The notes under the pieces were generated by a model. That model saw nothing but the letters and a program-made list of their open reading frames with translations. It ran no database searches and was not told the origin of the DNA. This document shows positions 20,117-53,919 of a stretch of DNA of 64,000 nucleotides, piece after piece (position 1 is the stretch's first letter; every line of letters starts with the position of its first letter). The DNA comes from Hydractinia symbiolongicarpus (Eukaryota > Cnidaria > Hydrozoa > Anthoathecata > Hydractiniidae): positions 16,875,001-16,939,000 of the forward strand of contig NC_079885.1 in NCBI RefSeq assembly GCF_029227915.1, in the 5' to 3' direction. The position numbers and the translations under genes are program-made.

Positions 20117-23100
20117 ATGACGTCACTACGCATGTTACCCGCGATGGATGTTCATCAATACAATGAAGAACATGAGCAGCAGTATTATATTTCTAAAAAC
20201 AAGTGAGTCTTCTTTTCTTCTGCTAGCCAAGGAGCTTTCTTGACTTTTGTACATTGGCATTAGCCACTAGCAGTTGGTTTTACCTATAATGTGATTTTCC
20301 CTTTACACAAAATAGTAATCTGTGCAAGTATACTATACTGGATGTTTTTGAGAATACCCATCATTTGTGTAAATGTTATGTTGTGCAGAGTGCAATTTGC
20401 AATTAATTTTTAATGAGTGGTTTATAAAAGTGAAAAATTTTCTGGCCATATAAAATAAGAAAAAAAATTGATTTACAAAATATGAATTATGATTAGGAGT
20501 GAACCAGTAGCAATTAGTTTTAAAGAACCTCTAAAAACCTAAATTTCATCATCCACTTGCTGTTTGTCTGTGAACCAATTTAAGAACTTAAAGTTTTGTA
20601 ATAGAAAATGCTATTATAATCGCACTTATAATCATAGTAAGAAATCATCTCCAAGCAAATTTCATTACTTCATGTTAACAGGCAGGCAAGGGTCACAAAA
20701 TATTGATACAGAAAATATATGTACAGTACTGTGAAAAGGTTTGTTAACATTGTGGTTCGTGTTTATTTCATGTTACGCACGAACCACGATAGCCCACAAT
20801 GCATATTTTTTTAACAATCGTGGACCTCACGATCATGTTTTGTGGACTACACAAACAAAAATTAAACATTACACAGTTGCGTCCACGATAAATAACTTCT
20901 ATTGTAAAACAACAAAGACCGTATTCGTTCATCAATTAAATCAAAAACTGACGGCAAAAATAAATAAATTAACACTCATAAAGCTAGCTAAATAATAGAT
21001 TTTAATCGTTCGTAAATCAACATGCGATGTAAAAAAACATTTCTATCGCCGCTTTTTGTTTATAAACTTTTAAAATGCAATCTAAAAAAACATTTATATC
21101 GCCGCTTTTCGTTTATAAACTTTTATAATGCGATCTAAGAAACATTTCTATCGCCGTTCTTCGTTTTTAAACTTTTAAAACGCGATCTAAGAAAACATTT
21201 CTATCGTCGTTTTCGTTTATGAACTTTTAAAATGCGATCATAGAAACATTTCTATCACCCTTTTTCGTTCTTAAACTTTTAAAACGCGATCTAAAACAGC
21301 ATTTCTATCACCGCTTTTCGTTCTTGAACTTTTAAAATGCGATCTTTAAAAACATTTCTATCACAGCTTTTCGTTTTTAATAGTTTAAAATGCAATCTAA
21401 AAAAGCATTTCTATCGCCCCAGACAAATTTAACTTTTCTAGATAAATGACATTTCCTAAAAATACAATCGCGTCCATGACGAAAAAGTATACACCAAGCA
21501 AAAAAATGAATATGCTGTTGTAACTTGATAAAACCTGAAAAAAAAAATTATACTGGCTATAAAAATCGTGGAGCTCACGAAAATAATCGTGGGACACACG
21601 ATCCTTCGTGGAGATAATAATATTAGCGTGGTGGCCACGTTAGAATGTTTGAATGTTTGTTATACATAAAGACCACGATTTTGTCGTGGTTTGTGTGCAC
21701 CACGCTCGTTACACGAACACAATCCTAACAAACCTCTTCACAGTACTGTATGCTGAGCAGTCCTCCATCAAATTTCCCACGGATAAAGACTAGTTCTCCT
21801 AAATTGTCCGAAAAAGGTCCTGATTATTTATCTGAAAAATCGATTTTATCCGTAAATAACTGCAAATATATTTTTTGCCTTTCTGTTTTTTTTTACAAGT
21901 TATACATTAATTTTTTCGCAAACCAAAAAAACTTGGTACTAGTCCTGGGTATAGTCTTGATATGTGTGCAAGGCAGATGTTTTTCAAAATATGCAAACTG
22001 AAACTTATTGACATTCTTCAATTCCCTTTAGTGGACTGCAACAGATCTAACTGGTATGCAGAGGGTGGGTTGGCACAAAACTTGTATCAGGTGTTATGTG
22101 CATTGTTTTTTAAGATTTACGAGTGTTATAATTAAAACAGGTTCATGTTTTAATTACCTTCATCCAGGTTTCAGAGAAAACCCTATATACAGCCTATAAA
22201 CAACACAAAGAATATTTATGTGAGTTATACTCTCTTTTCATAGAAGCATATTCTAAATTTTTATCAGCCTCAGTAGGCTTCAGAAACTGCTATTTCAGCT
22301 GCAAACTGTGCTTACAATATCTAGTATTATCTAGTATATCTCATTATCTATTCTAATTATCTAATTATCTTATCTAATATCTAGTACAATATCTGCTTAC
22401 AATATTTAGTAATGTTGTTCAACCTTGTTTATGTTTGTACCATTTTCACACAATAGCAACAATGTTTTGTAAATTTGTAAAAAGATGTTTGGACATTTTT
22501 AGAATATGTACAATGTATGTGGAATATGAATATGCAGAATTCCTATTCGTCTGTGCAGTCAAACCTGCTATAGCGATCACCTGTATAGGACGGTAACCTG
22601 TCTTGATCACCACATTTGGGTCCCCCAATGTGTTTTTAGGTCATTTGCTACTCTTTAAGACGACCACCTGCCTAATGCGACTAACAACCGCTATTTTTAA
22701 TTCCTTTTTTTTCAAAAGCAGCAAACCTTGCCCATTTTTCTACTGCAATATAAGTATATATGTGTAGTAAAGCATTTACATTTACATTCAATTTTTCATA
22801 ACTTGGAGGTCACAGCTCTTGCATAAATTCAAATAATCTCTTCTTTCCACAAGTTGTGATAAAAGACTAAAAGGAAAAATGTGTCCACAGAGGAGGTGTT
22901 TTTTATGAGGCAACTACTTTAAGTCCCCAGAATGGCCGTCTTTCACAGGTTTGACTGCATGTTTTCAGTTTCGACAGCTGATATTATGCTTTACATACTT
23001 ATTATGCTTTAAGTTGGTTTTTCCCAATACAACTGATTTTAACTAGCTATACAGTTCAATTTAGCAGGACCCAATTTGCTAATCGAAATGCCAATCACTC

Positions 23101-26100
23101 TACGATGAATATTAAAATGGTGAATTAACTATTTTCATTATTGTGTCTTTCCCTATCTTTATTTGTGATAGTGATGTTAATTAGCAGTAATCGTTCCTTC
23201 TTTTTGTTAGTTGTTTTTCTTTTTGTTACTTTTTTTTGCTTGATTATTATTTTATGTTGGGAGCGAAAATAATATATTTTTTTTGTTAGCGTATTTCAGT
23301 TATTACATATTTAATAAACCATTAATGAAATCAAACTAGGCTCATTGCAGTATTTCCTTTTAAAAACCTCCTTTTAATTCTTCAATTGAAGTTTTTATTA
23401 AAATCTTATTATCAAATGCAGCTCACTATAAATAAGTGTATAAAAATATTTACTAAGCTTTTAATTTAGAGTCGAAATATATTTTTTCAAATTTCTGTTA
23501 TCAATATTCGAAAGTACTTCAATTGTTATTATTAAATTCTTATAGGTAAAGTAGTGTACATTAAGGAAAAAGTTAAAATTAAATAAATTTCCTAGATTGA
23601 AAGTGTTTTTAAAATCTCATAACGTTTTAGGACCCTTCATAGTGGACAGAGATTGGGGCAATAATAACAATGTAACGTTTTATGATATCCAAGTAAATAT
23701 TTTATTCATAACATAAATCAAAATTACCTTGTCTTCAATTGAACATTATTTTAGGACATGTTCAAAAAACATAGGCAGGATTTTGGCCAATTGTGAACAT
23801 TGGTATGCCATGTTACATTTTTATCTCTGTAGCTGATTTGGTATTTCCAATAAAAATCTTGAATACATTTTAAGAAATAGAATAAAAAATCTTTGAACAG
23901 TGAAGTTTCCATCCTTGTAGTTTGTGTACACTATGAGATATATATTTACAAACTCAAACAAGAGAAATGATAAAAAAGTAACAAGTGTATTTTTTTAAAA
24001 ATGATAAAAAGCTCCATAATGTTTGAAAATTTATTTTTATGACTTGAAACTTGGTACAGGCATAGTTTTGATAAATACGAGCACAATTTCTCGGTTATTT
24101 TTTATGAAGCAAGCAAAATGATAAATCTGTAACAGAAAACATATTAAGATGTTAGGTTTTTATCTGAAGATTTCAATGTTTATTTTTTTCATTTAGAACA
24201 TAAATCAATAAAAAACAACAGTTTCAACATTATGCTACAACATGAAATAAAAATTATTCAGATTTGAACACAAAAAAATGATAAATATTTAACTAAAATA
24301 AAGTTATTGTTCTATACCCTGCGTTAAATATATGTTACTTTATTGATCAATAATTTAATGAAGAAATGGTTCTAGAAAATTATCCTTTTAAGAAATTAAC
24401 TGGGTAAGCTTTATAAAAGGTTTTTAAGAATAAATAATGGTGCCAAACCTGTAACATTGTGTGTAATTGATAAAAATGTAACCTTGATTGCATTCTCAGT
24501 TACTTATTTTGTATATTGATACAGATGAAGATTTACAAAAAATCTTCTTTCTTACTAAGTTGCTGAACCTAAAAGACAATCCTGGGTGTTAATGGTCTTT
24601 ATCATTTGCAAACTTGTGTGATAAAAAAGTAACATAACTTAAGTATACTTGCCTGTCGATTTTTATGAAAAGGATTGGAAAATCAGCTGTCAGAATTTGT
24701 TGCGTCTGTTATATATTTCTTATGCATTCGTTATGTTACTCTTTTATCCCAATACAATTGTCTAGTTTTCTTCTGATTTAAAAAAGTTTGGTAGCACAAG
24801 AAATAGAATTAAAATATGTTTTTACCTTTAATGACAAATCCAGATAAGAAGATTGAATTGGCTGGGGTGCTTGGAAAGAATAGAGGGGGATAATCGGGTA
24901 AGAAAGTGTAGAGACTTGATAGTTTCTGGGGCAAAGCCCAGAGGCAGACCGAGAAAGACTTGGCAGGAGGTTATAAGGACAGACTTGATACAGAGGAAGT
25001 TGAGTTTAGATCTAACACAGTCTAGATCAGATTGGAAGAGGGTCATTAATATACCACGTCCAACCCATGCTAGCATGGAAAACGGACGTTAAGCCGTTGA
25101 TGATGGTGATGATGATGGTGATGGTGATGGTGATGGTGATGGTGATGGTGATGGTGATGGTGATGGTGATGATGACAAATAATTTATTTAAAATCCTAAA
25201 AAAATTTACCCTGCATGTTATGTTTTTATCCCTAATTTGAATGAAATTTACCTAAAATAATTATTACAATGTAGTTTTTCCATAAATTACTAACCAAATT
25301 ATGACTATTTATTAGATTATAACTACAGATTTTGAGTCCAAAAAGTAACACACTCATAATATTGCCCTTGTTACTTTGTTATCATGTATCTTTCCGGGAA
25401 TAGTGTTACTTTCCTTGTCTGATGCTATTTTTAGCTTCGAATAGGATCAAAACAACCAGTTTTGGATGTTATAGTGTTACAAATCATCTCAAAACAACAA
25501 AAGAGATATTTAAGTAACAAAGTTACTTTTTTGTCAATTTCCTTGTGTAGCTTAGGTTTCAAAAGAAACAAAATAGTGAGTCAGACTTGTTACATGATTA
25601 TCAATTTTTCTACAAAGTTTCATGGAAATCAAGGAAATAATTTTTAAGTTATAGCTGAAAGATCAAATTTGGCATTTTTTGAATGTTCACATCCTTGCCT
25701 ATGTTTTTTGAACATGTTCTTTAACTATTAGAGAAAAGGACGTTAAAAATAACAGAGTTGCAAGCTCCCAAACTCAGTTCTCGTGTTTGGGGTTCACAAA
25801 AAACCTCCACTTCTCACTAGCACAATTTAAAAGCACCTCAGAAAAAAGTATATATATTAAAGTATATTTTTCAATTCTCTCCAATAAGAGAACATCCTAT
25901 CCGACAGCAACAGGTTAGTGATTTTAAAAGTATACGTAGATGTAGATGTGCAATGAAACAATTAAGACCTGTAACAAGTATTGGATAACCATTAAAATTG
26001 TCATCAGTGAATTTATTTTAAAAAAAGGACAATCACAAACATGTATTGGTAAGCATTGCTTTTTTTAAAAAACTTTTTTATAGATATCCAACCGACAGCA

Positions 26101-29100
26101 GCAATGATCCATTCGAATTGTTTATTTGTCCATATGATCCAAATCATAAAATTACTGCTAAGAAATGGAATAAACATTTAAACGGTGATAGAAAAGTATG
26201 CCTGCCCTTTTGTTGATACTGTAGATCTTTTCATAAATTTGTATTATTTGCGTTATTTATTTCAATTTTTAGAAATATGGCGGTAACTTCAAAACTTGTA
26301 TGTTTAACGCAAGCCATCACATTCCTGAACCTGCATATGAGTACCATATGACCACTTGTCCAGACCAGGTAGACTGTATTTTTAGAAATCTATGCTGTCT
26401 TGAATGATCACTTTTGTAATAATATTGTTTAACAAACTTGCCATCTTAAATAATTTTTTGTTTCCTGCAACCTGACCTACTGTAACAAAATATTGCCAAT
26501 CCTAAAAATTTTAGATAAAAAAATGTAGCCATGAGCAATACAAAAATATATAAACAAAGAATAAAATCAATCTATATTAAAATACCCATATACGTCTGTC
26601 CGTCACGCAAAATGGTAACTTAGCTGCACAAGTAGCGAGACGCAAGCAATGCGGTATAAAAAGGACGGGCTAACGACTAGTTTATTAAAACCAAGCTTTT
26701 CGTACTTCTATGTACATTTTTAAGGTACATGAAATGTACATGAAGTACGAAAAGCTTTTATTTTAAAAATTCTACTTCCATAAAATAGGGAGAGAAAAAA
26801 ATTAAATAAAACTTACCTCATAAATTTAGTGTTTATATTTGCATGTTGTTCTTTTATCTTTATATTTTCAGTACATAATACAAAAAGGCAACTGCTAATC
26901 GAACTGCAAAAAAATACTACTAATTTGATTGGTTATTACATGTGCACGTATATACACTCTGCTCTCGTTTTTTCATGCAAACAATGAAGACATTGTAGGG
27001 AATTAAATGTAACAATATATACAAATTATGCAGTATTCGAATTTTACCTGCTTCAAAAAAGTTTGGTAAATTGGAGAAACCATATTAAATTTGAGCAAGT
27101 GATATAATTTAAAAAGAGCAATAAGATTAAAGGGATCATTGATGAGGTTTTATGCACTGGAAACATGGGATGATTTCTCGAAAAGGGCTTTAACTGGAGC
27201 AATTTATGGTACAGAATATTGTTCGATTTCAATTTTTCATCAATCAAAAAAATCAGTGAAGAGGAGGTGTCTGTGTTAAAACTAAATATTGTTGACAAGG
27301 ATTTGGACTTTGACCCCAAGTTAAAGTATGCGAATACAAAAGTTTTTGAAAATGATATGTCAAAAAAAAAATTTTCTTAGGTATTTCCAGCACTAATGAG
27401 GCATGAATTACGTTGCTATTTATTAATATGGTTAAACTGCAAATTTGTGCAGAAGTCCAATTATTTAGGGAAGAAAAAGCTTTAAATCTTGTCAGCCACT
27501 TCAGAGAATGGGAAGTTAAGGCTATGATTGCAAATTGCCTTTGGTATCTTGATAGCACCAATAAAAATATACAGGCTCATGCTAAAAACGATCCTAATTG
27601 AGTTTTGTTTACTTTACGGGTAGAAAGTTTCGCTCAGAGAAGGTTTAGCGCTTTCACGATTTTTAGCCATATTGCGAAAATAAGTACCCGCAGCTAATGT
27701 ACCATCTATCGTTCCATTCCTTTGCTGCCTTCGATCAGGAAATTGGAAGAAAGTGTTACAATGATCACTATACCAGCCCATCAAAATGGAGAAAACAAGA
27801 TTGATGATGAAAATGCCTCGTCAAGTGATCAGGACTCCAAAACGAAAGATTATTTTACACAAAATTGATTTATTCACTCGTTCATGAAGTAAATCCCTAA
27901 AATTTTGTGTTTTCTTCCTTGCGAAACTTTCTCTACGTAAAGTATAATATATTACATAAACTTAAACACACTCATCAACAGCTTGTCTCTTTTTTGCTTT
28001 AAAAATAAATTGATGCGGAAATAAGATGCAATTTGGTTTTGTTCCAGGGCGTGGCACTACAGATGCAATATTTTTACTCAGACAGCTTCAGGAAAAGTAT
28101 TTAGGAAAGAGAAAGAATCTCTATTTTGCCTTTGTAGATTTAGAGAAAGCTTTTGATAGAGTGCCACGTAAAGTTATTTGGTGGGCTATGAGAAAATTAG
28201 GTGTGGATGAGTGGCTAGTTACGATGGTTCAGTCTATGTACAGCAATGCTAGAAGTCGTGTCAGGATTAACGATTCACTTAGTGATGAATTTAGTGTAAA
28301 TGTTGGTGTACATCAGGGTTCTGTACTTAGTCCTTTGTTGTTTATTCTAGTCTTAGAAGCGCTGTCGATGGAGTTCAGAACAGGTTGTCCATGGGAGTTA
28401 TTGTATGCAGATGATTTGGTTCTCATAGCAGAGTCGATGGAAGAATTAGTTGAAAAGTTTGAGAAGTGGAAGAAAGGACTAGAAGAGAAAGGGCTGAAGG
28501 TAAACACAGCAAAGTCTAAAGTCATGATAAGTAGCATTGCAGCCAAGTGTGACCTTGTAGTTGGAAAGTGGCCTTGTGGAGTTTGCAGGAAAGGGGTTGG
28601 TAGTAACTCAATTTTTTGTCAGACCTGCAAGCATTGGGTACATAAGAAGTGCAGTAGTATTAGTGGAAGGTTAAGAGCTGACATACAGTTTGTATGCAAG
28701 CGTTGCAAAGGTGAGACTATAGAGAATGAAGTATTTCCAGCTTTAATGATGTACAACAGTGGCTCGTTAAAGATAGTTAAGAACTTCTGTTACTTAGGTG
28801 ATATGTTGGGCAGTGAAGGGGGTGTTGAAAGAAGTGTTACTTGCAGGATAGGTTCTGCTTGGAAAAAGTTTAGAGAGTTACTTCCTTTATTGACTAGCAG
28901 AGTCCTGTCAATTGAGGTAAAAGGTAGGTTGTATGAGGCCTGTGTAAGAAGTGTTATGTTGTACGGTAGTGAGACATGGGCAGTGAAGCAGGAAGATCTT
29001 GACTGTTTAGAAAGGAATGATATGAGAAGGGTTAGGTGGATGTGTAATGCCAGTCTGAGAGACAGAAAGAGTTCAGATGAGCTAAGAAGCAGGCTAAGTC

Positions 29101-32100
29101 TCCGTAGAATTAAAGTTGTTATTCAGATAAGAAGATTGAATTGGCTGGGGCACTTGGAAAGAATGGAGGAGGATAATTGGGTAAGAAAGTGTAGAGACTT
29201 GATAGTTCCTGGGGCAAAGCCCAGAGGCAGACCGAGAAAGACTTGGCAGGAGGTTATAAGGACAGACTTGATAGAGAGGAAGTTGAGTTTAGATCTAACA
29301 CAGTCTAGATCAGATTGGAAGAGGGTCATTAATATACCCCGTCCAACCCATGCTAGCATGGAAAACGGACGTTAAGCCGAGAATGATGATGATGATGATG
29401 ATGAAACATAAAACACAAAGGCATTAATCTCAAGAGAATAAGGTGTGCTTCAATGAGTGTTGCAAAAATATAATTACGGCTCGCTCTGGCTTGTTAAACA
29501 CCAATAAAAGTAAATTTTGAAATATTTATTTTATTGGTTGTTAATAGGCTTTATATTCTACACTAAAATTGTTGGCTGTCATACAATTTGTATCATTTAA
29601 AATCTTATACATTATGTTAGACTAACGCTTTAATGTGACCCATTAATAGTGTCCTAAAAATAAACTTCCGTCTTTCATTCTCCTTAACGTTTACATAATC
29701 ACTAGTTTAAGAACAGGGATCAGTAAATATGTGGATGAATTATATGCTAAGGGAGCATCAGCCGCAAAATTATAGTTCTTTCGGAATCCATGAAAGCAGG
29801 TTCTTCCTGCTTTCATGGATTATGTTACAATTTAAGGGTCTGCTTGCTGAGACTTTATTCAGCAGCAGCAACAACCGGCTCGACATTCAGTGAATATAAA
29901 GTCTTCAGATATAGTGATCATTTCATATATCTCATTTTTTATTCTAATTCTTGCATAACTATGATTGTCAGGGACAGGAACAGACAGTTGTATTAGCCTT
30001 GGCGTTTCAAACGAAACACACTGCTAAAAATAGCATCCAATATAGCATTTGTATATAACAAACATAATGTAACATTTTTTATAACTCAAGGTAGCCTGTG
30101 GTACTGAAAAGAGTTTGCTTATTATTGACATATTTCCTCCCCCTTACGCTTGAAAATAATATATATATTTTTCGTTTCTAAGATGGACCTACCCTAACCG
30201 ATGGAGCTACCCTAATCCTTTTTTGCAGCTTGAGTTACAGCAAACAAGCAATTATTTAAGGAGAGTCTAATTTTTGGTACTACAACATATCATTAACCTT
30301 ACCTTCCTAACCCATTGTTTATTGCTTGTCCACCTTTGGTGGGTCGCACTCACGCAAAGTTAAGGAATAAAGATGTGCTTTTTTAAAGCTACATCTTCTT
30401 CTTGTTCAATGTTGATAATAATCAACTAATTTAGTTTTTATTCTAACAGATAAGGAATTCTTTTTTTCCTGAAAGAATAAAACAGACTTCTCGTGTCATT
30501 TTTAATTTTGAATGGTCACTATGGTAACTCATAGCAAAGTTAACATTATATATATCTTGTGTTGCAGCACATCATTCGCAAAGGCCTAGAAGAGAGTAAG
30601 TCCTTAATTTGTATTAATTTTATTCTACTTCCAATAAGGATCTAATTTTGGTTGCTTTGCTCGAATTTAATTAATATTCTCACAAAATTTATTTAACTTT
30701 CCTAATGTGAGATAGGAGGATAGAAAAAAATAAACTAAAGAAACTATATCTTTTGTACTGTCTGTGTAGGCAAAGCAAGTGCTTTTATATACATTAGCTT
30801 GTAAAAAATGCATAGCTTTGTTTAATAAAAAATCATTATTTAATCTGATTGATTGAGATTTTGAATAAGAATTTTTAGAAGGAACTCCCGTAAGAAATTT
30901 GTTCTGTATTTTTATGAAACTGTTGTTTACATTTTTAATTGGCTAGAGTTGGCTGGGAATTGTATTGTATGCTAATTTAAATTTACCGCTTGACTTCCGC
31001 TTCAACCTTCTTCTTCATTAAAGAATTTCAAACTAGCTCCTGTCTTTTTTGTTGCATGTGGCCCTATTACATAAGATTTATTTTATTTGTTCAAATTAAT
31101 GACTTCCATCCTATAAAATTAATGTCATAGGGAAAAACAATTAATATCCCTTCGCACCAAAGTTAAAAAAAGTTCTAGGACTTTCCAACATCGATATCTG
31201 TACAAATGTGTTTTAAAACATGTGTTTTAAAACATGATATACTCACATAGCTAAGCTATATGTGAGTATATCATGTTGATAAGGAAATATTTAATTAACA
31301 GCAGGTGTGTCCATAATTTCTTTTGTTTCGAATTGAAAAGGATTTATTTAATGAAACAGGTTGTTAACAACATGGTGACCACAGTCCTAGAAATTCCTGA
31401 AAAATCTTGGGAAAATTAACTTGTCCTGGAAATTCCTAAAAAATCCTGGAATTTTGACAAAAAATTGAAGATGTCCTGGAATTGTCCTGGAAAGTAATCA
31501 TGTTAAGAAAAATGTTAATTCCAAATGTTTAAATCCGTTTACAAACGTTACAGAAGGGATTTTCTCAAGTAGTGGTTAAAACCTTTAAGCTAGATGTTTG
31601 GATTGTTTGCACAGTGAAGAAGCTTTTACTTGCGATGTGTCTCTTTCAACAATTACAAATTGTGATTCCTTTCACTATCGCAACTTGCAAGCGAATAAAA
31701 TGTTACAGTATATATATCTAAAGAAAATGAATTCCCTAATGGAGTTAAAGCTCGTTTTTTACATAATGATATATTCTAAATATAAATCAACTTAATGGCT
31801 CCTTAAGGGAGTCATTAACGTAAAGGAATAATCAAATTCAGGACAACAGGACAAATTCTTATATACCCCTCCCCTTGACGAAGTTAATTAAACTCTAGAC
31901 GTCGGAGTTTCGCCATGGGTCGAAGATATGTACCATTTTTTGTTTTAATTTCTGCCATTCTCACTTTTCCATCTCTTCCTGCAATTCCTTTTACCACAAT
32001 TCCTAGCGGCCACTGTCCTCTCGGCGAGTCTGTTTCAATCAGAACCAATTCGTCAATTTCCATGTTTCGATTTTCATCTTGCCATTTTAATTGTTTCGAT

Positions 32101-41100: not shown

Positions 41101-44100
41101 TTCATAAACGGACGAGTGTAGCAGTGTACTTATATTTAGAACGTTGAATCACTTTCCAATAAATCAATTTTTAGATAAGAGATAGGTTTATGAACTTAAT
41201 AAACTAAAAAGTGTAATAGTTGGTTTCCGCACAGAAATCAAAAAAGCAAGTATCTGATATGGTGGAAGTTACTGTGTGATCTCTGTCAAACAATGTGGAG
41301 CATTTTGTTCTTACCAATACTTACCAATGATAGTCTAATCATTGTGATTCTTCTTATTGTATTTTGTATTCTTTCAGAAATAGATCACAATGCTCAAGAG
41401 TTCAGCATTAATGTAAGCAAAGGCATGCCATTGGCAATGTTGCCAAAATATGGTGCTGTTGCGACTGAGGGGGAGGAGGACTTCTGCGACCATGTAGATG
41501 ATGAAAATGAATCAGAAGAAATAGAAGAAGTATATGAAGAATATGTAAATATTGACAGTACATTGTCATCTTCTGTGTTGAGAGAGGAGTTAATCCCTGA
41601 AAAACCATTAAACTGGAACGAGTAAGGTCATGTTATTGTTACTGTGGAAGAACTGGGTTAAAAGCCAACTCTTAATAGATGACCATATTTTTTCCGGAAA
41701 GTTTCGGTTGCAATGATTATTGGTTTACAAATTTTATTTTATTTTAGTATGAGCAAGACCCAGAAGAAGAATCATAAGAGAAAGTACGAGCGCCAGCAGC
41801 AAAGGATGGCAGAAGAGGGGGTCACTGAAGAACATTTTCAACCGTAATTTGTTTTGCATAATTTATTAACTCTGTGGTTGCTTCCTTTTAAGTTAAAAGA
41901 TAGAAAATAAGACCTGGCTATACTTGGTTTGCAAAAAACAATTGATTTTTTTAAAGGGGATGTTTTAACAGGGACTACAAAACTAGCTGTCGATTTTTGA
42001 CTTTAGTGACTTGCACTTGCACGAAAGTCGAGCTTATGGTGAGGAAAAAGTTCATGAGCAATGAAGACAAAAACAACATCTTAAAACATTTTGAATATCG
42101 CATACCCAAATACAACTGAAAAAGACAGAAAAGTACCTTCCAAATATTTGATATCAATAATTTATTTTATATAAAAACTATACCTTGCTTTTAAACCTTA
42201 GCTTTTAAATAAAAACATATTCAATTGATTAAATTTATTGAAATAAAAAGCCTTTTATCCAACTAAACACTCAGGTTCCCACAAGAGACATTTATGTACT
42301 ACATTGTTACTTAGTCCAAAGATGAAATTGCTAAAGCAATGTGGAATAACTTTGGCATTAGTCGCAGACTTTTCCAAGGCTTTTCATACCGTCAATTATC
42401 CAAATCTTCTTAATTTATTAAACTACTTTGGTCTAGCCAACGAATTTTTACGTGCTATTCACAGTTATCTTGCTGAACGCGTACAATACGTCCAAATCAA
42501 CCCCGAAGTCAATCTTCTTTGTAGTACCACAAGGCAGTACATTAGGCCATTCAACGTCTATGTATCTGACAGGTCTACCATTTTACAGAATCATACCCTA
42601 CAATTCGCTGATGATACAACTATTTATATCTATTGTAAAGTGAAGTCAATAATGTCTCTGACAGAAAAACTTAAAAATGATCTCAATGTCATGAGAACTT
42701 GGTGACATGATAAAAACCTTCATTAAATCCATCCGTAACATCAAGGAGGTGTTAAAAAGAAGGAGAGAGAACTCTTTTATTTCTATTGAAATCATCCGTG
42801 GCTCATGTTTACTTTTCTCTATTGTTCTTACATCGAATTGTTAATCAGAATTTGAAATCTCACGCTTAAATTAATAAATTAGCCGTTATCTGTTGTTATT
42901 ATTTGCATAAATTATGAGCTCGCGGCTATTTTTCTCTCAGTGATGCTTGTTAGTTGATAATTTTGTCGTTTTTGCATATCATAAACAAGCAAGAAGCGAA
43001 ATGGTAGGCAAAGACGTTAGAAATATAATAGAATTGGAAGAAAAATCAAAAACATTATTGGAAAAGTTTTGAATTTAAACATGTTGAAAAAATATAAAGG
43101 AGAAGATATACAAAACCTTTCTGTAATTGAGCTTATGAGAGACACTTTAATTGATCAAGCCGGATCATACTTTCACGACATCTTGGAAATGAGAACTTAT
43201 CAAAAATTCTCAAAGCTCAGATTATAAAAAAATAGTGTGACATCAAAGCAAAAGCATACGTCACTGCGATTATACAAGTAGTATAAAAAATTGCTTAAAA
43301 CTTTTACCCAAATATACATAATTAGAACTAATAATTATTTTTTCCATGACAATGGAAAACATCACCGACATCACAGAGGGCTGCGACACCCTACCGAGAA
43401 TTCGTCTACTTTGAGAGTTGAAAACACAATTTTATAAATAACTCCTCTTGACGAAACTGTACAAAAACGTTAATCAACCCTTTAACTAACATTTTCCCAG
43501 GAGGGGACATACGAAATAGTTTTTAAGTTGTAAAACTTTCCGAACTTCCAAGGCAGTTTTTCACACTTTGAAGGCACTTCACTCTTTCCGCGTCCTTATG
43601 AAAGTGGAAAAACAAACTTCACCCCCATTGAATCTTTTAGTTTAACTAAGCCACATGTTTTCCTCCTCTTCTGCATTGCTGTAAGTGTGATTTTAAGATT
43701 TATCTTTTCTCGTTAAAACACTCGTTTTCAATGCTGGTAGGTAAATATTGGGCCCAATCAGAGCCACGGATCGGTTGAAAGGGGCACCGACACAATAAAA
43801 AATTGAATAGAAAATTTAAAGGGACGCGGCAAGTTCTCTCTCCTTCTTTTCAAAACCTCCTTGGTAACATCCAGGTCAGTACATCACAAATGATCAATGA
43901 ACACACACTTAAAAAACAAAATACATAATAAATTCAATGTAATTGAACGAAAAGAAACAAACTATTTGGGATAAAATTTAATAAAACATTTTATGGAAAC
44001 CGCATATAAATGAAATTATAACTTAAGATTTGTTTGTCTGAGTTAAGACAACTGAAAAGATTGCTCCTTTCTGTGTAAGAAAAAGGAGAATGTATGGTTA

Positions 44101-47100
44101 TGTCAAAAATAGATTATGGTTTTGTTATTTTTAAAAACTCTCCACAAATTTAGTAGCACGATAACAGAAACTCCAAAATACTGCTGCTTCTTTTGTTATC
44201 GGTGGCTGCTGTCGAGAGGAGCACGTGATTACGAGATTGCTGTGGATACCAATTAAAGAACCTTAGTACTAAACTCTACCAAAAGACAAACGTGGACAAC
44301 TAAACAAAAGCTCGAGAAGGATACGTTTAAATTTCTGTCAGCTGAAACCTTCAACGAACTCTCCGTAATAATTTGAAAGAAAAAAAGTTTAATTATAATT
44401 AGCAATTCATAATAGTTTAATAAAGCACTTTCTAAACTTCTCCAAGACAAGTAGTTTTTCCTATTTTAAATTTGTCACCTTTTTTTACCTAGCTAGCTAG
44501 CTAGCTAGCTATTTTCTTTGGAAATTTTGTGCAGAAACATGCTAAATATTGCATATAGTTAAGGCAACACAATGATTCAACTTACATGTTTAAGAAATAC
44601 AGTCCCTTGTCTCATCTCATCTCATCAAAACAAGCTTTTGATTTTACAATTATGTATTATATTTTGCAGACCGTCCGCCAAAAAAGAATCCTGAAAAATA
44701 CTGAAGGATAATGTATTTATATTAAAAGAAAGACCATTTAAAAAGGTAGCAAACCATAAAAAATTATTGGCAGGTTGTCTGTTATGGTTACAATAAAGCG
44801 GGTATAATTTCTTGTGTCTCTCAACCTTCTGAGTGATCTAATTATTACACAATGTTATTTAGAATGTGCAAGAATGGAGAGTTACATCAATGACAGTGAT
44901 CTTATTTGAGCCGTTCTATAATTCTTTTAATTTCTCCAGTGAATCGCAAGTTTCTTAAGGCTCAGGAAATCTCAGAAAAAATTCAATTTTTAGAATCAAA
45001 CTACAGAAATGTAATTGCCCTTTTTCGATATAAAAATGATATTTTGTTTGTTTGTATATTTGTTTTGTTGTTAACGTGTACATCGTTACCTTTATAGGGA
45101 GACTGATCCTACGAAGTGGACAGAGGAGAAGAGAAAGGCGAAATTGAATGCCGTTAAGGCTGCCTATCCGGTATCTGTCAACAAAATGATGGGTTGGTTA
45201 AGTTTTTTTTAACTAGTCATTGTTTGAATAAAAAACATTCGTTTGTACACTGATTTGTGATAAAAAAAAAATATAAATTGGCATAATTTTTAAAGAGCTA
45301 TCATGTTGTTGTTAATGCATGGCTGAACTCAATTCGTTTATTGACCATTTATAAACCCTAAACAAACCAATTTTAAGATTTTGGTTACAAATTTAGATCC
45401 TGATGGAGCAGAGCCTAGCCAGCTGTGTTTATCCTATTCTGTTTAGGTTTTTACTCAGCTGAGTGATTTTCATCCCAGCTAACATTATTGTTTGTTTTTG
45501 TGTTATCTTCACCAATCTGATATAGGTATTATTTCTTACAGTTAATTTTGTAACGACAGGCTGTAACTAGGCTGTGTTCGTGTTTAAACTGGCAGTTAAC
45601 TTTAACTTATTTCGCACAATCCCTCTGTAAATATTGTAGCAAAATGGGTAAACAATAGGCATAGTCTGTGTTTTTTATTTAAGTTAAAGTTGGGATACAG
45701 TTATTTTTCGAAATGGAAATAACGCCTGAGAGGGCGTACTGCTGTAAGCACTTAACATGACTTTTCAACATGGTTTACCTGTACCAAGAAGTTTATTTTT
45801 TAACTTTTGCAGGAACTTATTATGCAAAATAAAAAACACTGGCGAACTGTTTTTTGTTATGAAAAGGTTAAACAGGTTGTAGCCTGTTTTTTCTTTAATT
45901 TAGCCAAAATTTGTAGAACGGTTTTTTCGGGAAAAACTGTCTTTGTGTATCGTTCTAAGCGCTCTGTTGGATTTGCGACAGACCCTATGATTTTATTTAA
46001 ATGGAAAGGCTTAAGTTTGCTTATTCCGTAAAATAGATAATGGGTGAATGTTTTTGCTAGGATGGGGTTACAATAGACTATTTTTTATTGAAGAATACAT
46101 GAAACACCTATTACCCAATTGTTTAAGTTCTATATGATAGCGGTTTGCTGGATTTAAATAGAATACGGTGTTGTTTATGATCGCGTTTTGATGATTTTAG
46201 GACAAAATACCATTTCGTTTAAGCTCCATATTATCGCGTTTAAATAAATAAAGAAACGTCCGGTTATTGAAATATAGTGATCGATAGCGCTTTTAAACAA
46301 TCTGTTACATGTGACAACAAAAGTTACAATTGTATCTATCACCTGTTGCGTATTTTTCATAAAGAAACGTGTGAAACATCAAGATTAAAATTTATGCGCA
46401 AGTTTCCGTCTGCGAATTTTATGTTTAGTAGGTAAATTTGATATGCGAAAAATAGGAAATAACCTGCGAATAGCGATTCGCGATCCGTTAATTTGAACGG
46501 TATGGCCTATGTTAAGATTACTAGCTATATTTTTTAAACTACAAAAAAAAATTAAATAATTCTCTAAAAGTTTCCAAGTTGCTGCCTCTACAGGTACAGG
46601 GATTTAATGCTTATCATATAAAGTACCCCGAGTTAAATTCTGCTCCACTTGACTATTAAAACGTTGTCTTGGTTCTGCTGTTCCGAATCTGTGTCACAAA
46701 GTTACTTTTCATGCATGTAAAAGCAAAATAGTTGAACAGCGGTTCTACTTTTTACTTTCACACTGTGATAAAAATATTACCAATTCATTTTTAAGAAAAA
46801 AACAGACATTGTTGAAGAGCTCAGCATATCCAAATCATTAATATTTTAGTTTTGTCTTCATATTCATAAATCTTGTACCTTTTAACCTAAAATGCAGAGA
46901 TGTAGTAAGCAAAAATTATAAACAAATTTCAATGAAATATGATTTTACTAAGCGCTCCACACAGTTTACCTGCACTAAGCGCTCCACACCTGTACTGAGC
47001 GATCCACACAGTTTACCTGTACTTAGCACTCCACACAGTTTACCTGTACTAAGCCCCCTTACACAGTTTTCCTGTACTGAACCGCTCAACCTAGCGTTCA

Positions 47101-50100
47101 ACGCCAAGTTACGGATCTAGTCTGTATAATAATAGCCGTATTTTGTCTTGTGTTCAAAATGGTTGTACAACAGGCAAATTCCTGTGGCTTTTTCCGTGGG
47201 CTAGTCTCTTTGTAATGATGGAGAAGTTAAACATTACATTTAAGTTTTTGTTTCAGTAAATATTGTACTTACGATACTTATAGTTATTTCTTCTCTATGG
47301 CGCAGTCCGAAAAAGGCCTAATTTTAAGGGGAAAACGCAGCCATAGAAAATATCCAGGTAAAATGAAGTTTGGCAATACAAAAGGAGTAACTTGAAGGCT
47401 TATAAATAAACGTATAAATAACCCATTAATTTTAATTAATCTAAAGACAAATTTGAGCGTCTTTTATTTTTATTTCCACAATGAATGCCTAACGCAAAAC
47501 AATTCTTAACAAAATATCAACCCTTAGTACGCATTGTTTGATGTTTAGCTACACAATTTGATTTCACAAGTCTGCTCAACATAGTTTGCCAGAAGACACG
47601 GTTAAATTTGCCAACCTACAAAGAGTGTGCACCAGGAAGCCAAGGCGGATTTGCATACGAGTGTCGGATTCGAGATAAAACGTATGTTGGATTGGACTAC
47701 TGTTCCACAAAGAAGGACGCCAAACACTCATGCGCCAAATGGGCGTTGCTTTCGATGGATATTTCAGGATTGGGTAGGATGGCTATTTCTTAGTGTGTCT
47801 TTTAATACATATGTCGGAATTATTAATAAAACTTAATGGTCTGTAGTAAATAATTATCTGTGAGCTCCATAAGGGGTATCAACATAGTCGAAGCCATATG
47901 GCAATATTCAGAACAGATCTCACAGTTTGATTTCCACCCTTTTTTATTCAAAATGTGAAGTTGGTAAAAGTCTCGCAACATATTTTAATTATTTCAATAA
48001 TCGAGGCAAATTTTGGTATAGATCTGGTTATCCAAAACTAACTGTGTTAAGCATGGCCTTTAAAACTTTAAAACATCACCTGTTAAAATTTAACTTTTTA
48101 AAGTAGCTAGCTTTTTAAACACCTGTATTGGAGCAAGGCCACAGTTCAATCTATGACCGGGTAATGATAGACTTGTCCAGTTCGTGGAGTTTGTAAACAA
48201 ATCCTAGAGGTTTTTTAGATACAAAATTGTTTGAATGTGAGGTGACATCTGCAACCAGGTTTCACTTTTTTATTTACGATTAATGCACCAGCATATTCTG
48301 TGAAATAAAAAGGCTGGATGACTGTTTTAACTACACCCTATCCAAAGGCGTTATATTCAGGGCAGAAATGAACTTGCTTTCAATATCTTGGCAACCACTT
48401 GACCTAAGCGAACAAAATGATCTTGTACAACGTTAAAACAGAGAAAAAAATAACAATCTGCAAGTGCCAAAAGACAGCGGTTTAAAAAAAAGGAATTTTT
48501 GTTTAAAACGGTATGTTTTACATAAAACACAACTCATTGTAAATTCAATAATAATTTAATGACTTGAAACTTTTATAAAATGGAAAATGAAATCGAAACT
48601 TTTCTACTATTATCACAGTTCCGGAGTTCCTGATTATGGCCGTTTTGAAAACGCCGATAAACAATTTTTGACTGTATATCAATTTTAATAAAAATACATG
48701 CACAGAAAACATTAAGAGCAATTCTCATGATTAAAATAAGTCACATGAGGTCTAAATAGAATTTGTGTCATCCTATTTGTTAAAGGGGCTACGGAACGGC
48801 TGTTGGTTTTCGACATTAGTGACTTACACGAAATTCGAGCTATTGGCGGCGAGAAACAAAAATGGCTTTTTTTCCGGCATGTATGTAATTTACTCAAACA
48901 TATAGATATATCTAGAATTTTTATCTTCTCCAGTTTTGTGGCGCCGTAGATTAGTGGTTATAGCTCTCGTACTCTGTGCGGGAGACCGGGGTTCGATTCC
49001 TCTTGACGGCGATTTAACATGGGCGAGTGAATGTTACCATAGCCCCCGGTTAACCCAAGCCATGTGAGGGAAATTAGGGAGATGGCTCCATGTGTGGGCC
49101 GTTGTATGTTGCCAGGAATTGTCTAGTAGAGCGCGGGCCCTTATTGGGTCTGCGTAGCGCAAAATGAGCATTAAATACTCTAGGACTCTCCATCTAAGCC
49201 ATGGTCCCTCCTGGAAATAATAGACAGGGTATATCCCTCGATATTAGTGAGGCTAGCCATGTAAAATATCACATCTATCTATCTATCGATCTAAAAAGCT
49301 GCTGCAACATCAACCATATTTTTATATCTTTTTCAGATATTTTGATTAGGTTTTTATGAAATTTTCTAACTCAAAATTTGCATTAATTTTCCATGAAACT
49401 CAACGTTTGCATTGTTTCAAATCCCAGAATAAAAATAGATAATTTAATGGGGCGCCAGTTAGTATTAAAACATTAATGCTGTGGTAAAGTAGCTGGTTCA
49501 CCTTTGTTATTCGTGAAAATATCTTGGTTGATTCGCGATAAATTTATGCTTGCGTTAGCCACAAAGTGACCACAATTTTTTGCTGCAATATCTCTTGCTT
49601 ATTTGTACTTTTGATTTTTCGCAATTTTGCCGTGATTATAATCTTTCCATTTGCACTCATATTTTCAGATTTTCGTTCAAATTCAAAAGTTTCGTGTTTT
49701 CTAAAAACATTTTTATACTTTCTGTATTTTATTTATAGATGGATCGAGTCACACTAGAGCAAAGCCTATTCATCCATCGCTACGCGCTCATTCTGCAAAA
49801 TTACGCGAAGACGATGAACTTGGTCGACTAATGACTGCGGGAACGTATTCTCAGAAGAAAGCAACCGTTTCTCCATTACGAAGACCCCAAATCCAAAACC
49901 AGGCAAGTTGTAACTATATTTTTGCACTATGCTTTTCAACTTACTATCAATAAGGCCTGTGGAAAAAATTCACTTGGAGAACAATGAAAAAGAGAACCAT
50001 CAGTTGAATTTTGATGCAAGGACCCGTCAAGACACAAAAAAATCTTTTTTCAGAAATTTGTTTACCTGTTGCCTCTATTGCCAGACCTTGAAATGCTGAT

Positions 50101-53100: not shown

Positions 53101-53591
53101 AAAAGTTAATAAAAGTATATTGCATTTGCTGTTTCTGTGTGTGTTGTTAATCACCTGTAAAAGCGTATTGTTTAGAATTTTGTATAACTTCAGACTCAGA
53201 CGCAATCATCTTCAAATCTAACTTATGAACAAACTGGACAACCTCAACAACAGCAGTGGCAGCAGCATTCACCACTACCACCACCACAACAACAACAACA
53301 ACAACAAAATGGAGTGCAACCATGGCAACAATCTGGCGTAGTTGGAAACAGAGTCACTGGAGCTTCCATACTGAGTAACAACATGCAGTATATGAATTTG
53401 GATAATATTAAGGTTAATGTCCTTCCTTCCTTTCTTCCTTCAAATCATCACGTTTTGAAGTTATGTGGTTAATATAGCGAACCAACCGATCATAGCTCAG
53501 TTAGTATAAATCTATTCTTTCACGATTTTAGGAATTCCAAGGTTTAGAAGCATGGACGACTGTAACAAAGAAAGGTATGGGATGTTTTTGA
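20117..53591 (+). CDS. GTSF1-like CHHC zinc-finger protein fused to a dsRNA-binding domain (12 exons)
   Basis: Exons: 20117-20202, 26084-26195, 26273-26368, 30568-30595, 40160-40237, 41378-41621, 41748-41843, 45098-45192, 47585-47773, 49739-49902, 53194-53412, 53532-53591. All phases agree across eleven junctions, and the frame stays open for 488 codons. Domains: CHHC modules at 44-64 and 75-95; Trp/acidic segment 110-135 (PDWQQPDTGDNWED) and KGMPLAMLPKY, matching the tail that in GTSF1 contacts PIWI; acidic 155-210; basic 217-240; dsRBD about 270-336; Gln/Pro-rich 410-445. GTSF1/Asterix is normally about 110-170 residues and acts with PIWI proteins in piRNA silencing; a dsRBD is not part of that family as I know it. 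The start ATG lies 20 nt after a TTTTGTTAG acceptor. The 3' end is uncertain: AAAG/GTATGG may be a donor rather than reading to TGA. Introns are loaded with transposons. No transcript evidence is available. Confidence 0.78.
20724..21748. mobile_element. 1025-bp TIR element with TA duplication (mariner/pogo-like MITE)
   Basis: Inverted ends of about 38 bp open CAGTACTGTGAARAGGTTTG, flanked by TA on both sides (20722, 21749). Subterminal sequence is rich in ACCACGA/TCGTGGT motifs. The interior is a tandem array (21012-21420) and encodes no transposase. It lies in intron 1 of the GTSF1-like gene. Confidence 0.8.
21012..21420 (+). repeat. 52-53-bp tandem array, eight copies
   Basis: CATTTCTATCGCC-type units start at 21039, 21091, 21143, 21196, 21247, 21300, 21353 and 21406, each with TTTTCGTT and AAACTTTTAAAATGCGATC. 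The same unit in reverse orientation occurs at 36565-36750. Confidence 0.85.
21750..22555. other. intron sequence, no feature beyond simple repeats
   Basis: AT-rich, with an ATCTA/TTATCTA-rich patch at 22318-22395. No coding signal supported. Confidence 0.4.
22556..22957. mobile_element. 402-bp MITE with CAGTCAAACCTG ends
   Basis: CAGTCAAACCTG at 22556 and its complement CAGGTTTGACTG ending at 22957 define short inverted termini. GCGATCACCTGTATA and GACGGTAACCTG inside resemble the subterminal blocks of Tigger/pogo-type elements. No transposase; target duplication unclear. Confidence 0.55.
23757..25722. mobile_element. foldback-like element with ~25-bp inverted ends, nested LINE fragment
   Basis: ACATGTTCAAAAAACATAGG at about 23757 is mirrored by CCTATGTTTTTTGAACATGT ending at about 25719, followed on both arms by related GTGAACATT sequence. 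Inner parts of both arms carry GATAAAAAAGTAAC and its complement several times, so the ~2-kb segment forms a long imperfect palindrome. TTTA borders both ends. A LINE 3' fragment sits in the middle. Confidence 0.55.
24841..25178 (+). mobile_element. 5'-truncated LINE 3' end with GATGGT tail
   Basis: About 250 bp near-identical to the 3' end of the LINE at 28026-29375 (RLNWLGCLERI, RGRPRKTWQEVIRTDL, PTHASMENGR), ending with the same GTTAAGCCG and then an 80-bp (GATGGT/GATGAT)n microsatellite. A typical severely 5'-truncated insertion. Confidence 0.85.
25725..26083. other. end of intron 1, no feature seen
   Basis: AT-rich sequence up to the exon 2 acceptor; a pyrimidine tract TTTTTTTAAAAAACTTTTTTATAG precedes exon 2 in broken form. 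No gene or repeat supported. Confidence 0.4.
26369..28020. other. intron 3, left part: hairpin and decayed coding-like segment
   Basis: 26690-26757 is an inverted repeat (AAGCTTTTCGTACTTC mirrored by GAAGTACGAAAAGCTT). Between 27215 and 27600 the + strand reads protein-like pieces in shifting frames (IKKISEEEVSVLKLNIVDKD; SHFREWEVKAMIANCLWYLD) that I cannot assign; probably a dead transposon reading frame. Confidence 0.3.
28026..29375 (+). CDS. LINE reverse transcriptase C-terminal ORF with zinc-finger insert
   Basis: 449 codons, open to TAA, opening inside the RT domain: FGFVPGRGTTDAIFLLRQ, FVDLEKAFDRVPRKV (about 36-50), GVHQGSVLSPLLF, and the catalytic YADDLVLIAE with YADD at 127-130. After the RT a Cys/His module CGVCRKGVGSNSIFCQTCKH, then HKKC and CKRC (about 183-230), then FCYLGDMLG, YGSETWAVK, RRLNWLGHLERM and RGRPRKTWQ, the usual C-terminal domain of RTE/CR1-like non-LTR elements. 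The 5' part (endonuclease, RT entry) is missing, so this is a 5'-truncated copy with no start of its own; the ATG is internal. It ends GTTAAGCCG with a (GATGAT)n tail. It lies in sense in intron 3 of the GTSF1-like gene, and its intact frame suggests a young insertion. Confidence 0.9.
   Translation: MQFGFVPGRGTTDAIFLLRQLQEKYLGKRKNLYFAFVDLEKAFDRVPRKVIWWAMRKLGVDEWLVTMVQSMYSNARSRVRINDSLSDEFSVNVGVHQGSVLSPLLFILVLEALSMEFRTGCPWELLYADDLVLIAESMEELVEKFEKWKKGLEEKGLKVNTAKSKVMISSIAAKCDLVVGKWPCGVCRKGVGSNSIFCQTCKHWVHKKCSSISGRLRADIQFVCKRCKGETIENEVFPALMMYNSGSLKIVKNFCYLGDMLGSEGGVERSVTCRIGSAWKKFRELLPLLTSRVLSIEVKGRLYEACVRSVMLYGSETWAVKQEDLDCLERNDMRRVRWMCNASLRDRKSSDELRSRLSLRRIKVVIQIRRLNWLGHLERMEEDNWVRKCRDLIVPGAKPRGRPRKTWQEVIRTDLIERKLSLDLTQSRSDWKRVINIPRPTHASMENGR
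29400..30567. other. intron 3, right part: perfect hairpin, otherwise nothing
   Basis: 29785-29821 is a perfect 16-bp inverted repeat (AATCCATGAAAGCAGG, loop TTCTT). No other feature supported before exon 4. Confidence 0.5.
30596..31860. other. intron 4, left part: palindrome, otherwise nothing
   Basis: 31228-31277 holds ACATGATATACTCACATA mirrored by TATGTGAGTATATCATGT around AAGC-like loop. Several TCCTGGAATT/TCCTGAAAAATC motifs cluster at 31385-31490. No gene. Confidence 0.45.
31884..32766 (-). pseudogene. BEL/Pao integrase, two frames
   Basis: 32554-32766 reads TGVDFFEPLLIEQG (first catalytic Asp) and IRWVHLELV; 31884-32585 continues with IIFDCGTNFKGASNKL (second Asp), VPHMGGTWERLVRTVK with the catalytic Glu, LLAETENIVNSRPLT and a DUF5641-like tail ending LRRLEFN. 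One frame break separates the two. Confidence 0.8.
32922..33221 (-). pseudogene. BEL/Pao post-RT (RNase H side) fragment
   Basis: ADVITRGVYNMHKLELAD with IPGDENPADVITRG is the conserved stretch at the end of the Pao RNase H region (HVPGxxNPADxxSRG-like). Confidence 0.7.
33381..34230 (-). pseudogene. BEL/Pao reverse transcriptase, two frames
   Basis: 33712-34230 gives YLPHHPVFNPNKPRKIRVVF, then DALLRGPDFN and ISADIEEMFLQVKV (first catalytic Asp). After a frame change 33381-33722 gives HIFGAKDSPTCANYALKR and SFYVDDLL with the YVDD catalytic pair. The overlap of ten bases at 33712-33722 marks the frameshift. Confidence 0.8.
34252..34722 (-). pseudogene. BEL/Pao aspartic protease fragment
   Basis: TYALLDSGSQSTLL carries the active-site Asp-Ser-Gly, preceded by a frame break from gag. 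Later ...FGWTLFGPHG matches the DUF1758 region of Pao elements. Confidence 0.75.
34954..35862 (-). pseudogene. BEL/Pao gag-like ORF
   Basis: 302 codons, DUF1759-type capsid region: WFDGSPQQYVDFVTSFKELV, then VKGEVRRAIQGF, and a C-terminal zinc knuckle CRICKEKHPFFKCP. Intact from ATG 35862 to a stop at 34954, after which the polyprotein frame is lost, so the element is counted as broken. Confidence 0.8.
36565..36750 (-). repeat. 52-bp-type array, reverse copy outside its transposon
   Basis: Three to four units with GATCGCATTTTAAAAGTTT and GAACGAAAAGCGGCGATA, the complement of the array at 21012-21420. No TIR ends like those of the 20724-21748 element were found nearby. Confidence 0.7.
36931..38320. 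mobile_element. inverted-repeat element carrying a THAP fragment
   Basis: ACATCACATCGTGCAGAAAG at about 36957 is mirrored at about 38252 (CTTTCTGCACGATGTGATGT), and looser similarity extends outward (GGACTGG/GGACTAGG). Between them lie a THAP-like frame (+) and, at 38037-38182 on -, an open acidic stretch (NNDEDYNLENIELDNSLHEK). THAP domains plus inverted ends suggest a P-element relative; target duplication not identified. Confidence 0.45.
37067..37294 (+). pseudogene. THAP zinc-finger fragment with lost ligand
   Basis: MVSCLAFRCTNRPEKCKEVS starts like a THAP domain (Cys4, Cys9), with FHRIP and KWLNRIRRAGDLPSDQSF following the family spacing. The C-terminal Cys-x2-His is IWLAHF instead of ICxxHF: the Cys codon position reads TGG, so zinc binding is broken. 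The frame ends soon after at TAG 37292-37294 without the AVPTPY box. Probably the N-terminus of a dead P-like transposase or host THAP gene fragment. Confidence 0.65.
38321..40159. other. intron 4, right part: no feature recognised
   Basis: AT-rich; open frames at 39022-39288 (-) and 39728-39937 (+) lack motifs or splice context. Confidence 0.4.
40238..41377. other. intron 5, nothing recognised
   Basis: No repeat or coding signal that I can name. The short open frame 40773-40961 (-) has no support. Confidence 0.4.
41960..42110 (+). repeat. dispersed repeat C, copy 1
   Basis: CGATTTTTGACTTTAGTGAC and CACGAAAGTCGAGCTTATGG match 48795-48870 (TTCGACATTAGTGACTTACA, CACGAAATTCGAGCTATTGG). Confidence 0.5.
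42300..42705 (+). pseudogene. LINE reverse transcriptase fragment
   Basis: LVADFSKAFHTVNYPNLLNL holds the first catalytic Asp; LQFADDTTIYI holds the FADD pair. The intervening PQGS motif (VPQGSTLGH) is in another frame (42452-42643), so at least one frameshift. Both RT ends are missing. It sits in intron 7 of the host gene. Confidence 0.75.
42720..44669. other. intron 7, middle: nothing recognised
   Basis: Contains a TAGC microsatellite at 44491-44512. No gene or repeat family that I can support. Confidence 0.4.
44670..44694 (+). other. possible alternative short terminal exon
   Basis: After TTTTGCAG, an in-phase continuation of exon 7 reads PPSAKKES and stops at TGA 44692-44694, giving a 254-residue form without the dsRBD. 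ATTAAA follows at about 44718. Exon 8 is equally phase-compatible from exon 7, so this would be alternative. Confidence 0.25.
45193..47584. other. intron 8: short tandem array, otherwise nothing
   Basis: 46951-47090 holds five diverged ~33-bp units with CTCCACACAGTTTACCTGTA. 47170-47212 has CCGTGGGCTAGTCTCTTTG, a reverse-strand scrap of repeat A. The rest shows no feature. Confidence 0.5.
46951..47090. repeat. ~33-bp tandem array
   Basis: Units share GC(G/A)(C/A)TCCACACAGTTTACCTGTACT; about five copies, one shortened. Confidence 0.7.
48941..49293 (+). mobile_element. tRNA-derived SINE with TCTA tail
   Basis: tRNA-like head 48942-49011: acceptor CGCCGT with ACGGCG, A box TAGATTAGTGG, B box GGTTCGATTCC. 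A ~230-bp body follows (GGGCGAGTGAATGTTACC, GGCTCCATGTGTGGGCCG, GCGTAGCGCAAAATGAGC) and the element ends in (TCTA)n at 49273-49293. It lies in sense in intron 9. Confidence 0.8.
49945..50500 (+). repeat. dispersed repeat A, copy in intron 10
   Basis: Starts GGCCTGTGGAAAAAATTCAC, continues with GATCAAGAAAATGTATAGG, CCCGTCCATTCCGAAACGG, TTACCCAAATTGGTCCCAGG and TTTTAAGTGCACTGTA. An internal C9/A17 run sits at 50177-50203. Confidence 0.7.
50525..51138. mobile_element. ~610-bp TIR element carrying a coding fragment
   Basis: ACCTTATTCCATAAAATTAAC at the left and its complement (GTTAATTTCATGGAATAAGGT) at the right form the ends, with repeated CGCGTTAATTTAATGAC-type subterminal sequence. The centre (50712-51016, -) reads protein-like with one frameshift: ESHKAKITATVESTVVKRPS, then KVLLVNFPLGSEYDDYTKAI and NTVELSSDEEEIVKK. 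Confidence 0.65.
51168..51387 (-). mobile_element. tiny 5'-truncated LINE fragment with TA tail
   Basis: The - strand reads NTPVKIALAYAEEHYERPRR and RPISTWLFMMKKQI, the C-terminal motif of LINE ORF2 (TPxRIAL...RGRPxxTW), ending at a (TA)n run at 51169-51190 that would be its 3' tail. Confidence 0.6.
51517..51930 (+). repeat. dispersed repeat B, copy 2
   Basis: AAGCCGTTTCGGCAAGAAGT, GGAGTATTTGCC and, ~300 bp on, ACTAGACTGGTATCCTTCCG and AGTAAAAACGGCGACAAAAT, as in 11234-11490. Confidence 0.6.
51931..53193. other. intron 10, right part: nothing recognised
   Basis: AT-rich with AGCTA-rich patches at 51985-52140. Short open frames near 52850-53220 end in or overlap exon 11 and have no support of their own. 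Confidence 0.4.
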
Positions 53592-53626
53592 AGTCTAGCT
53601 AGTTTAGAAAATCTAAAATAATGATA

Positions 53627-53918: not shown

Positions 53919-53919
<1 letters not shown>

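Follow-up and report, generated by a model that had tools for sequence, protein, structure and literature searches.

A GTSF1-type zinc-finger protein with a double-stranded RNA-binding domain in Hydractinia symbiolongicarpus and other cnidarians

A gene on the plus strand of the analysed window (64,000 nucleotides of the Hydractinia symbiolongicarpus genome) is predicted to encode two zinc fingers of the GTSF1/Asterix type, a Trp/acidic segment and a double-stranded RNA-binding domain (dsRBD) in one chain. The in-frame fusion proposed in an earlier note on this DNA was borne out: the same parts form a single chain in eight relatives, one of which, P0001, reads as one open reading frame. On comparison of sequences and predicted structures, we consider with a probability of roughly 0.6 that this is one GTSF1-dsRBD protein, likely a PIWI slicing cofactor that holds double-stranded or folded RNA through a dsRBD of its own.

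The gene comprises 12 exons between 20117 and 53574, with the ATG at 20117 and a splice donor after 53574. The reading phase agrees at all 11 junctions, as had been claimed, the exon borders having been placed with P0001 as a guide and thus not being independent of it. Ten introns are of the GT-AG type and one (after 49902) is of the GC-AG type. The joined product of 495 residues is identical to P0001 at 477 of 495 aligned positions, with one gap. P0001 (516 residues) is encoded on a 1,803-nt contig without the introns, whereas the equivalent coding sequence in the window spans 33 kb and is interrupted by 11 introns. Judged from this arrangement, the source of P0001 must be spliced RNA, an intact processed copy being the less likely alternative.

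Exon 1 (20117..20202), which is identical to P0001, provides the start codon and an N-terminal extension (MTSLRMLPAMD...) that is present in 7/8 relatives and absent from P0008. Exon 2 (26084..26195) carries finger 1 (26127..26189) and exon 3 (26273..26368) carries finger 2, a CHHC module at 26297-26359; both exons match P0001 and Pfam. The family zf-U11-48K (PF05253) was detected in two stretches of the final 495-residue product (E = 3.5e-11, 43.2 bits, cut-off 21.1). With a profile built from the N-terminal parts of seven of the eight relatives, mouse GTSF1 was matched with E = 8.4e-28 and its counterpart in the SIWI complex with 3.4e-17; values were similar (1.8e-27 and 2.7e-17, respectively) when all eight relatives entered the profile at whole length. 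U11-48K was matched far more weakly by the N-terminal profile (5.2e-4), so that the front half resembles GTSF1 and not U11-48K, although both U11-48K and TRM13, another CHHC-finger protein (PMC9385479), have the PF05253 finger in common with the window family. The spacing of the ligands in the two fingers is the same as in mouse GTSF1 (6x46) and in the GTSF1 of the SIWI complex (9nhb and 9nhc, the latter entitled SIWI-piRNA-target-GTSF1-Maelstrom), and the fingers are followed in both cases by an aligning Trp/acidic segment.

The paired CHHC modules of the earlier note hold as two GTSF1-type fingers but not in the ligands of finger 1. All eight zinc ligands are intact in the seven relatives other than P0001, whereas the fourth ligand of finger 1 is Asp in place of Cys, giving C-H-H-D, both in the window and in P0001. 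Aspartate is able to bind zinc. Since a ligand of finger 1 has been lost, we class the protein of the window as GTSF1-derived and not as a typical GTSF1, the zinc ligands of which are called absolutely conserved in the available passages of a review (PMC9539491). The basic RNA-contacting residues, too, are partly replaced in the window. In mouse GTSF1, RNA is contacted by R26, R29, K36 and K39 of finger 1, which are needed for its effect (PMC9385479). Two of these four positions are basic in the window and in each of P0001-P0007, and all four in P0008; the R26 position is occupied by Thr or Asn in the window and in P0001-P0007. Given that finger 1 of the window has further lysines at mouse positions 24, 28 and 32, its RNA binding may nevertheless have been retained.

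The short exon 4 (30568..30595, 28 nt) encodes HIIRKGLEE(T) and matches P0001; a candidate for this exon near 27736 (EIGRK...) was dropped, as P0001 points to 30568-30595. Exon 5 (40160..40237) encodes the Trp/acidic segment of the PIWI-binding type, and the profile alignment to GTSF1 extends from the fingers through this segment, in agreement with P0001. PIWI is contacted in mouse GTSF1 by W98, W107 and W112 (PMC9385479). The equivalent of W107 is found in the window and in all eight relatives and that of W98 in the window and in 6/8, being missing from both Hydra proteins; no equivalent of W112 occurs in the window or in any of the eight. The GTSF1 of the SIWI complex likewise has no second Trp right after the W107 equivalent within the aligned part. 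The PIWI-binding-type tail suggested previously is supported in part: it aligns to GTSF1 and keeps two of the three tryptophans in the window. The mean pairwise identity of the segment (0.42) is lower than those of the fingers and the dsRBD, which counts against its reading as part of a PIWI cofactor.

Exon 6 (41378..41621), matching P0001, encodes an acidic stretch and the beginning of the conserved linker. The linker continues in exon 7 (41748..41843) as a basic helix, MSKTQKKNHKRKYERQQQRM, which is supported by P0001, the family alignment and AlphaFold, and in exon 8 (45098..45192) as a second helix, supported by P0001 and AlphaFold; the family alignment places the helical linker around NW.DMSK.QKKNHKRKY. 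Exon 9 (47549..47773) contains the dsRBD (approximately 47563-47757), on which Pfam, AlphaFold, the fold search and P0001 agree. The Pfam family dsrm (PF00035) was matched by the final product with E = 3.1e-6 and 28.1 bits (cut-off 23), and KKDAK lies at 47710-47724; the complete dsRBD with this motif described earlier was thereby confirmed. In the predicted models the domain adopts the alpha-beta-beta-beta-alpha fold, and both Foldseek and VIA returned dsRBD folds. GTSF1 came first in the fold search with the dsRBDs of HYL1 and R2D2 close behind, HYL1, R2D2 and DRB2 being among the first matches listed. The Foldseek E-values were modest (best 5.8e-4 and 3.7e-4), and the VIA matches are dominated by the dsRBD and barely probe other parts of the model. 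The closest solved dsRBDs by sequence were those of PKR (5.1e-7) and R2D2 (4.9e-5). AlphaFold models of two family members are ordered in the fingers, the linker helices and the dsRBD, with pTM values of 0.30 and 0.32, which give no fixed arrangement of the domains. Of the two sequence features that we take as dsRBD motifs, KKxAK is present in 7/8 relatives and the GPxH loop is missing from the domain in 8/8. The window family thus shares with R2D2, HYL1 and PKR the modelled fold, KKxAK and the sequence matches but differs from proteins of this kind in having a single dsRBD, which lacks the GPxH loop and is joined to GTSF1 fingers.

Downstream of the dsRBD, exon 10 (49739..49902), which ends in the GC donor, encodes a helix (PIHP..LRE.DE.GRLM) supported by P0001, the family alignment and AlphaFold. 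Exon 11 (53194..53412) encodes a Gln-rich stretch and exon 12 (53532..53574) encodes EFQGL followed by WTTVTKK, both matching P0001. At 53532-53546 the EFQGL of the window stands against EFPSL in P0001, which suggests two small compensating indels, either real or due to an assembly error. The chain had been taken to end at the stop at 53591; this is probably a read-through into the intron past the GTATGG donor at 53575, since P0001 goes on for 22 further residues to an RG-rich end that was not seen downstream in the window. Such an end is present in seven of the eight relatives (P0001 and six others), P0002 stopping early. The RG-rich last exon was not found in positions 53575-64000, and GRGR, RGRG, AMKL, TTMKL and repeated GR/GA were all absent from the plus strand after 47000. 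One DNA pattern for RG repeats gave no match in the window, a search that an exon of different wording could escape. The RG-rich last coding exon probably lies beyond the window.

Several other elements were noticed around and within the gene. The long open frame upstream (17056-18006, plus strand) matches human C2orf60 (3al5, E = 8.3e-112), which we take to be TYW5, a tRNA hydroxylase, and is probably a neighbouring gene. Intron 3 contains a 453-residue open frame (28014-29375, plus) in which a PHD finger (1e-6) comes after a reverse transcriptase (9.8e-28). In intron 4 there are retroelement pieces on the opposite strand (31884-35904, minus) with DUF5641 and DUF1759, presumably typical of BEL/Pao elements, so that a transposon of this type lies within a likely transposon-silencing gene; the same intron holds a fragment of a THAP domain (37064-37291, plus; 1.2e-8). 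A reverse transcriptase fragment in intron 7 (42247-42705, plus) was detected at 4e-6, below the Pfam cut-off. The 344-residue open frame at 55147-56181 (minus) has no Pfam match and resembles a Penelope-like element by eye. The segments 60182-60481 and 60893-61192 form a direct repeat (99% identity over 300 nt, spacing 711 nt) and probably belong to a tandem duplication. A tRNA gene at 2246-2312 (plus; RF00005, 53.3 bits) was the sole Rfam match.

The eight relatives were found among 476 candidates at E 0.01 in a search of 5.8 billion proteins; exon 4 and exons 10-12 were missing from the query, in which the join of exons 8 and 9 was an early guess. A search with the whole family alignment returned the same eight and only one further protein, P0009. 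Its match is confined to the linker, 7% of the query, it carries no Pfam domain among the precomputed labels, and it was left out of all counts. This otherwise dissimilar predicted protein of 349 residues has the linker motif of the family, NWNEMSKTQKKNHKRKYERQRQR, near its start, which points either to an artefact of the gene model or to a motif that is used twice. The relatives include two Hydra vulgaris proteins, LOC100213388 and LOC136072005, whose contigs measure 39 and 58 Mb and which are labelled in the database as 'uncharacterized protein', and Seg1367.6, labelled 'Gametocyte-specific factor 1' and presumably, by its label, from the Aurelia genome. Judged by these sequences, the family is conserved and apparently medusozoan cnidarian; the search was word-based, and relatives elsewhere could escape it.

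The relatives range from 382 to 574 residues and all contain the dsRBD. Both Pfam domains were detected in 8/8 at E 0.01 or better, a looser threshold than that of the precomputed labels, which give both domains in 5/8 (dsrm is missing from P0003 and P0006, the finger from P0002). The order of parts is the N-terminal extension, two fingers, the Trp/acidic segment, the helical linker, the dsRBD, the helix LRE.DE.GRLM and then the C-terminal parts. Among the latter, the Gln-rich stretch occurs in P0001, P0003, P0005, P0006 and P0007 (Gln fraction 0.14-0.30 past residue 390), FPSL or LPSL in P0001 and P0003-P0007, and W.TV in P0001, P0003, P0004, P0007 and P0008. Ranked by mean pairwise identity, the dsRBD (0.60) comes first, ahead of the N-terminal extension (0.58), finger 1 (0.565), the FPSL-RG end (0.54), the linker (0.54) and finger 2 (0.516); the helix following the dsRBD (0.42), the Trp segment (0.42), the acidic stretch (0.35) and the Gln-rich stretch (0.28) are the least conserved. 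Since the dsRBD is better kept than the fingers, it is unlikely, as far as sequence conservation indicates, to be a mere passenger. An alignment of the N-terminal parts of seven of the eight relatives (A2, P0007 excluded) was also used to look for a short classical GTSF1 in these animals; of 101 candidates none reached E 1e-4, a result of little weight because a match requires shared five-residue words.

Explanations other than a single GTSF1-dsRBD cofactor of PIWI were weighed against these data. The halves of the gene are separated by long introns with transposon pieces, and the earlier note named a possible end at 44694, both of which would fit two adjacent genes or a chimeric gene model. 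The two transcripts that this supposes are contradicted by P0001, which reads both fingers and the dsRBD in one frame, so that the refutation of the fusion proposed on this ground fails. As P0001 is free of introns and nearly identical to the product of the window, and as both domains are joined in all eight relatives, which come from several sources, we regard two genes or a chimeric model as ruled out for all practical purposes.

The remaining explanations accept the single chain and concern its role. The protein might be a dsRBD partner in the Dicer/miRNA pathway that has retained a GTSF1-like front and fills the place of Loqs, TRBP or PACT, homologues of which cnidarians are stated to lack in the available text of PMC9923473. 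The closest dsRBDs, PKR and R2D2 by sequence and HYL1, R2D2 and DRB2 among the first listed by fold, would be in line with this; however, dsRBDs are widely alike and the nearest folds name no partner, and the single dsRBD and the W107 equivalent kept in 8/8 relatives speak against such a role, which we consider unlikely. Alternatively, the protein might act as a scaffold, as C. elegans GTSF-1 does for an RNA-dependent RNA polymerase complex, with the dsRBD making a contact to a protein or to the product RNA. C. elegans GTSF-1 is without the basic residues and some orthologues have been suggested to be wholly scaffolds (passages of PMC9539491), and the basic residues of finger 1 are partly missing in the window family, too. 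Nevertheless, KKxAK in 7/8 relatives favours a contact with RNA and W107 is again kept throughout, and a scaffold of this kind appears improbable.

We therefore return to the reading as a PIWI slicing cofactor. GTSF1 was found to speed up slicing by PIWI proteins, and sponge Gtsf1 does likewise for a sponge Piwi (Arif et al., PMC9385479). By homology, the Trp/acidic segment of the Hydractinia protein would dock on a cnidarian PIWI protein as it does in mouse, the fingers would be placed as in GTSF1, and the dsRBD, borne on the linker, would hold folded or double-stranded RNA near PIWI; candidate RNAs are transposon transcripts with structure, tRNA-like elements and the guide-target duplex. The link from dsRNA sensing to PIWI slicing put forward in the earlier note is a reasonable hypothesis. 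The binding of RNA, which resides in finger 1 in mouse, may be shared with the dsRBD and the basic helical linker or partly passed on to them. The RG tail, if methylated, could recruit Tudor proteins of the nuage; in Bombyx Gtsf1L, a Trp in the tail is needed to bind the Tudor protein Vreteno (PMC10711660).

Only tentatively do we suggest a possible hand-over in hydrozoans, in which the RNA ridge of finger 1 would have decayed, with the zinc ligand lost in the lineage of the window, and the dsRBD with its basic helical extension would have taken over the grip, resulting in a self-sufficient activator of PIWI through which slicing would be coupled to dsRNA or to structures resembling tRNA. An analogous case is the tRNA-dihydrouridine synthase Dus2, which gained a dsRBD that binds tRNA together with an N-terminal extension, while the older surface lost its positive charge (PMC9775027). 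The comparison is one of analogy rather than homology and concerns the transfer of RNA binding to a dsRBD. Structures of the Dus2 type (4wft, 8b02) were among the fold matches, and these extend into the linker with intermediate Z (7.6 for 8b02).

According to the passages available from a review (PMC9539491), GTSF1 homologues are all smaller than 20 kDa, with two CHHC fingers followed by a C-terminus that is probably unstructured. The window family, with at least the 495 residues found in the window and 382-574 in the relatives, adds a dsRBD, a helical linker and an RG tail to this plan and thus breaks the generalisation. The view that no dsRBD was known in the GTSF1 family agrees with the same passages, which describe no such architecture. 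No paper describing a GTSF1-dsRBD protein was found among the open-access papers listed by the literature searches, and a search for the names LOC100213388, LOC136072005 and Seg1367.6 gave none. Two candidate sources were discarded as unrelated on the passages retrieved: in PMC9962485 the terms GTSF1, cnidaria and dsRNA-binding stand apart, and in PMC5788515, retrieved for CHHC and dsRBD, the dsRBD term sits in the title of a reference. GTSF1-dsRBD sequences are already present in public databases.

GTSF1 makes efficient slicers of weak PIWI enzymes and requires contact with RNA to do so (PMC9385479). A natural GTSF1 with a dsRBD of its own would be a direct test of whether this contact has been replaced, extended or redirected. 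The family occurs in Hydra, a tractable animal, the stem or progenitor cells of which contain PIWI proteins (PMC9923473).
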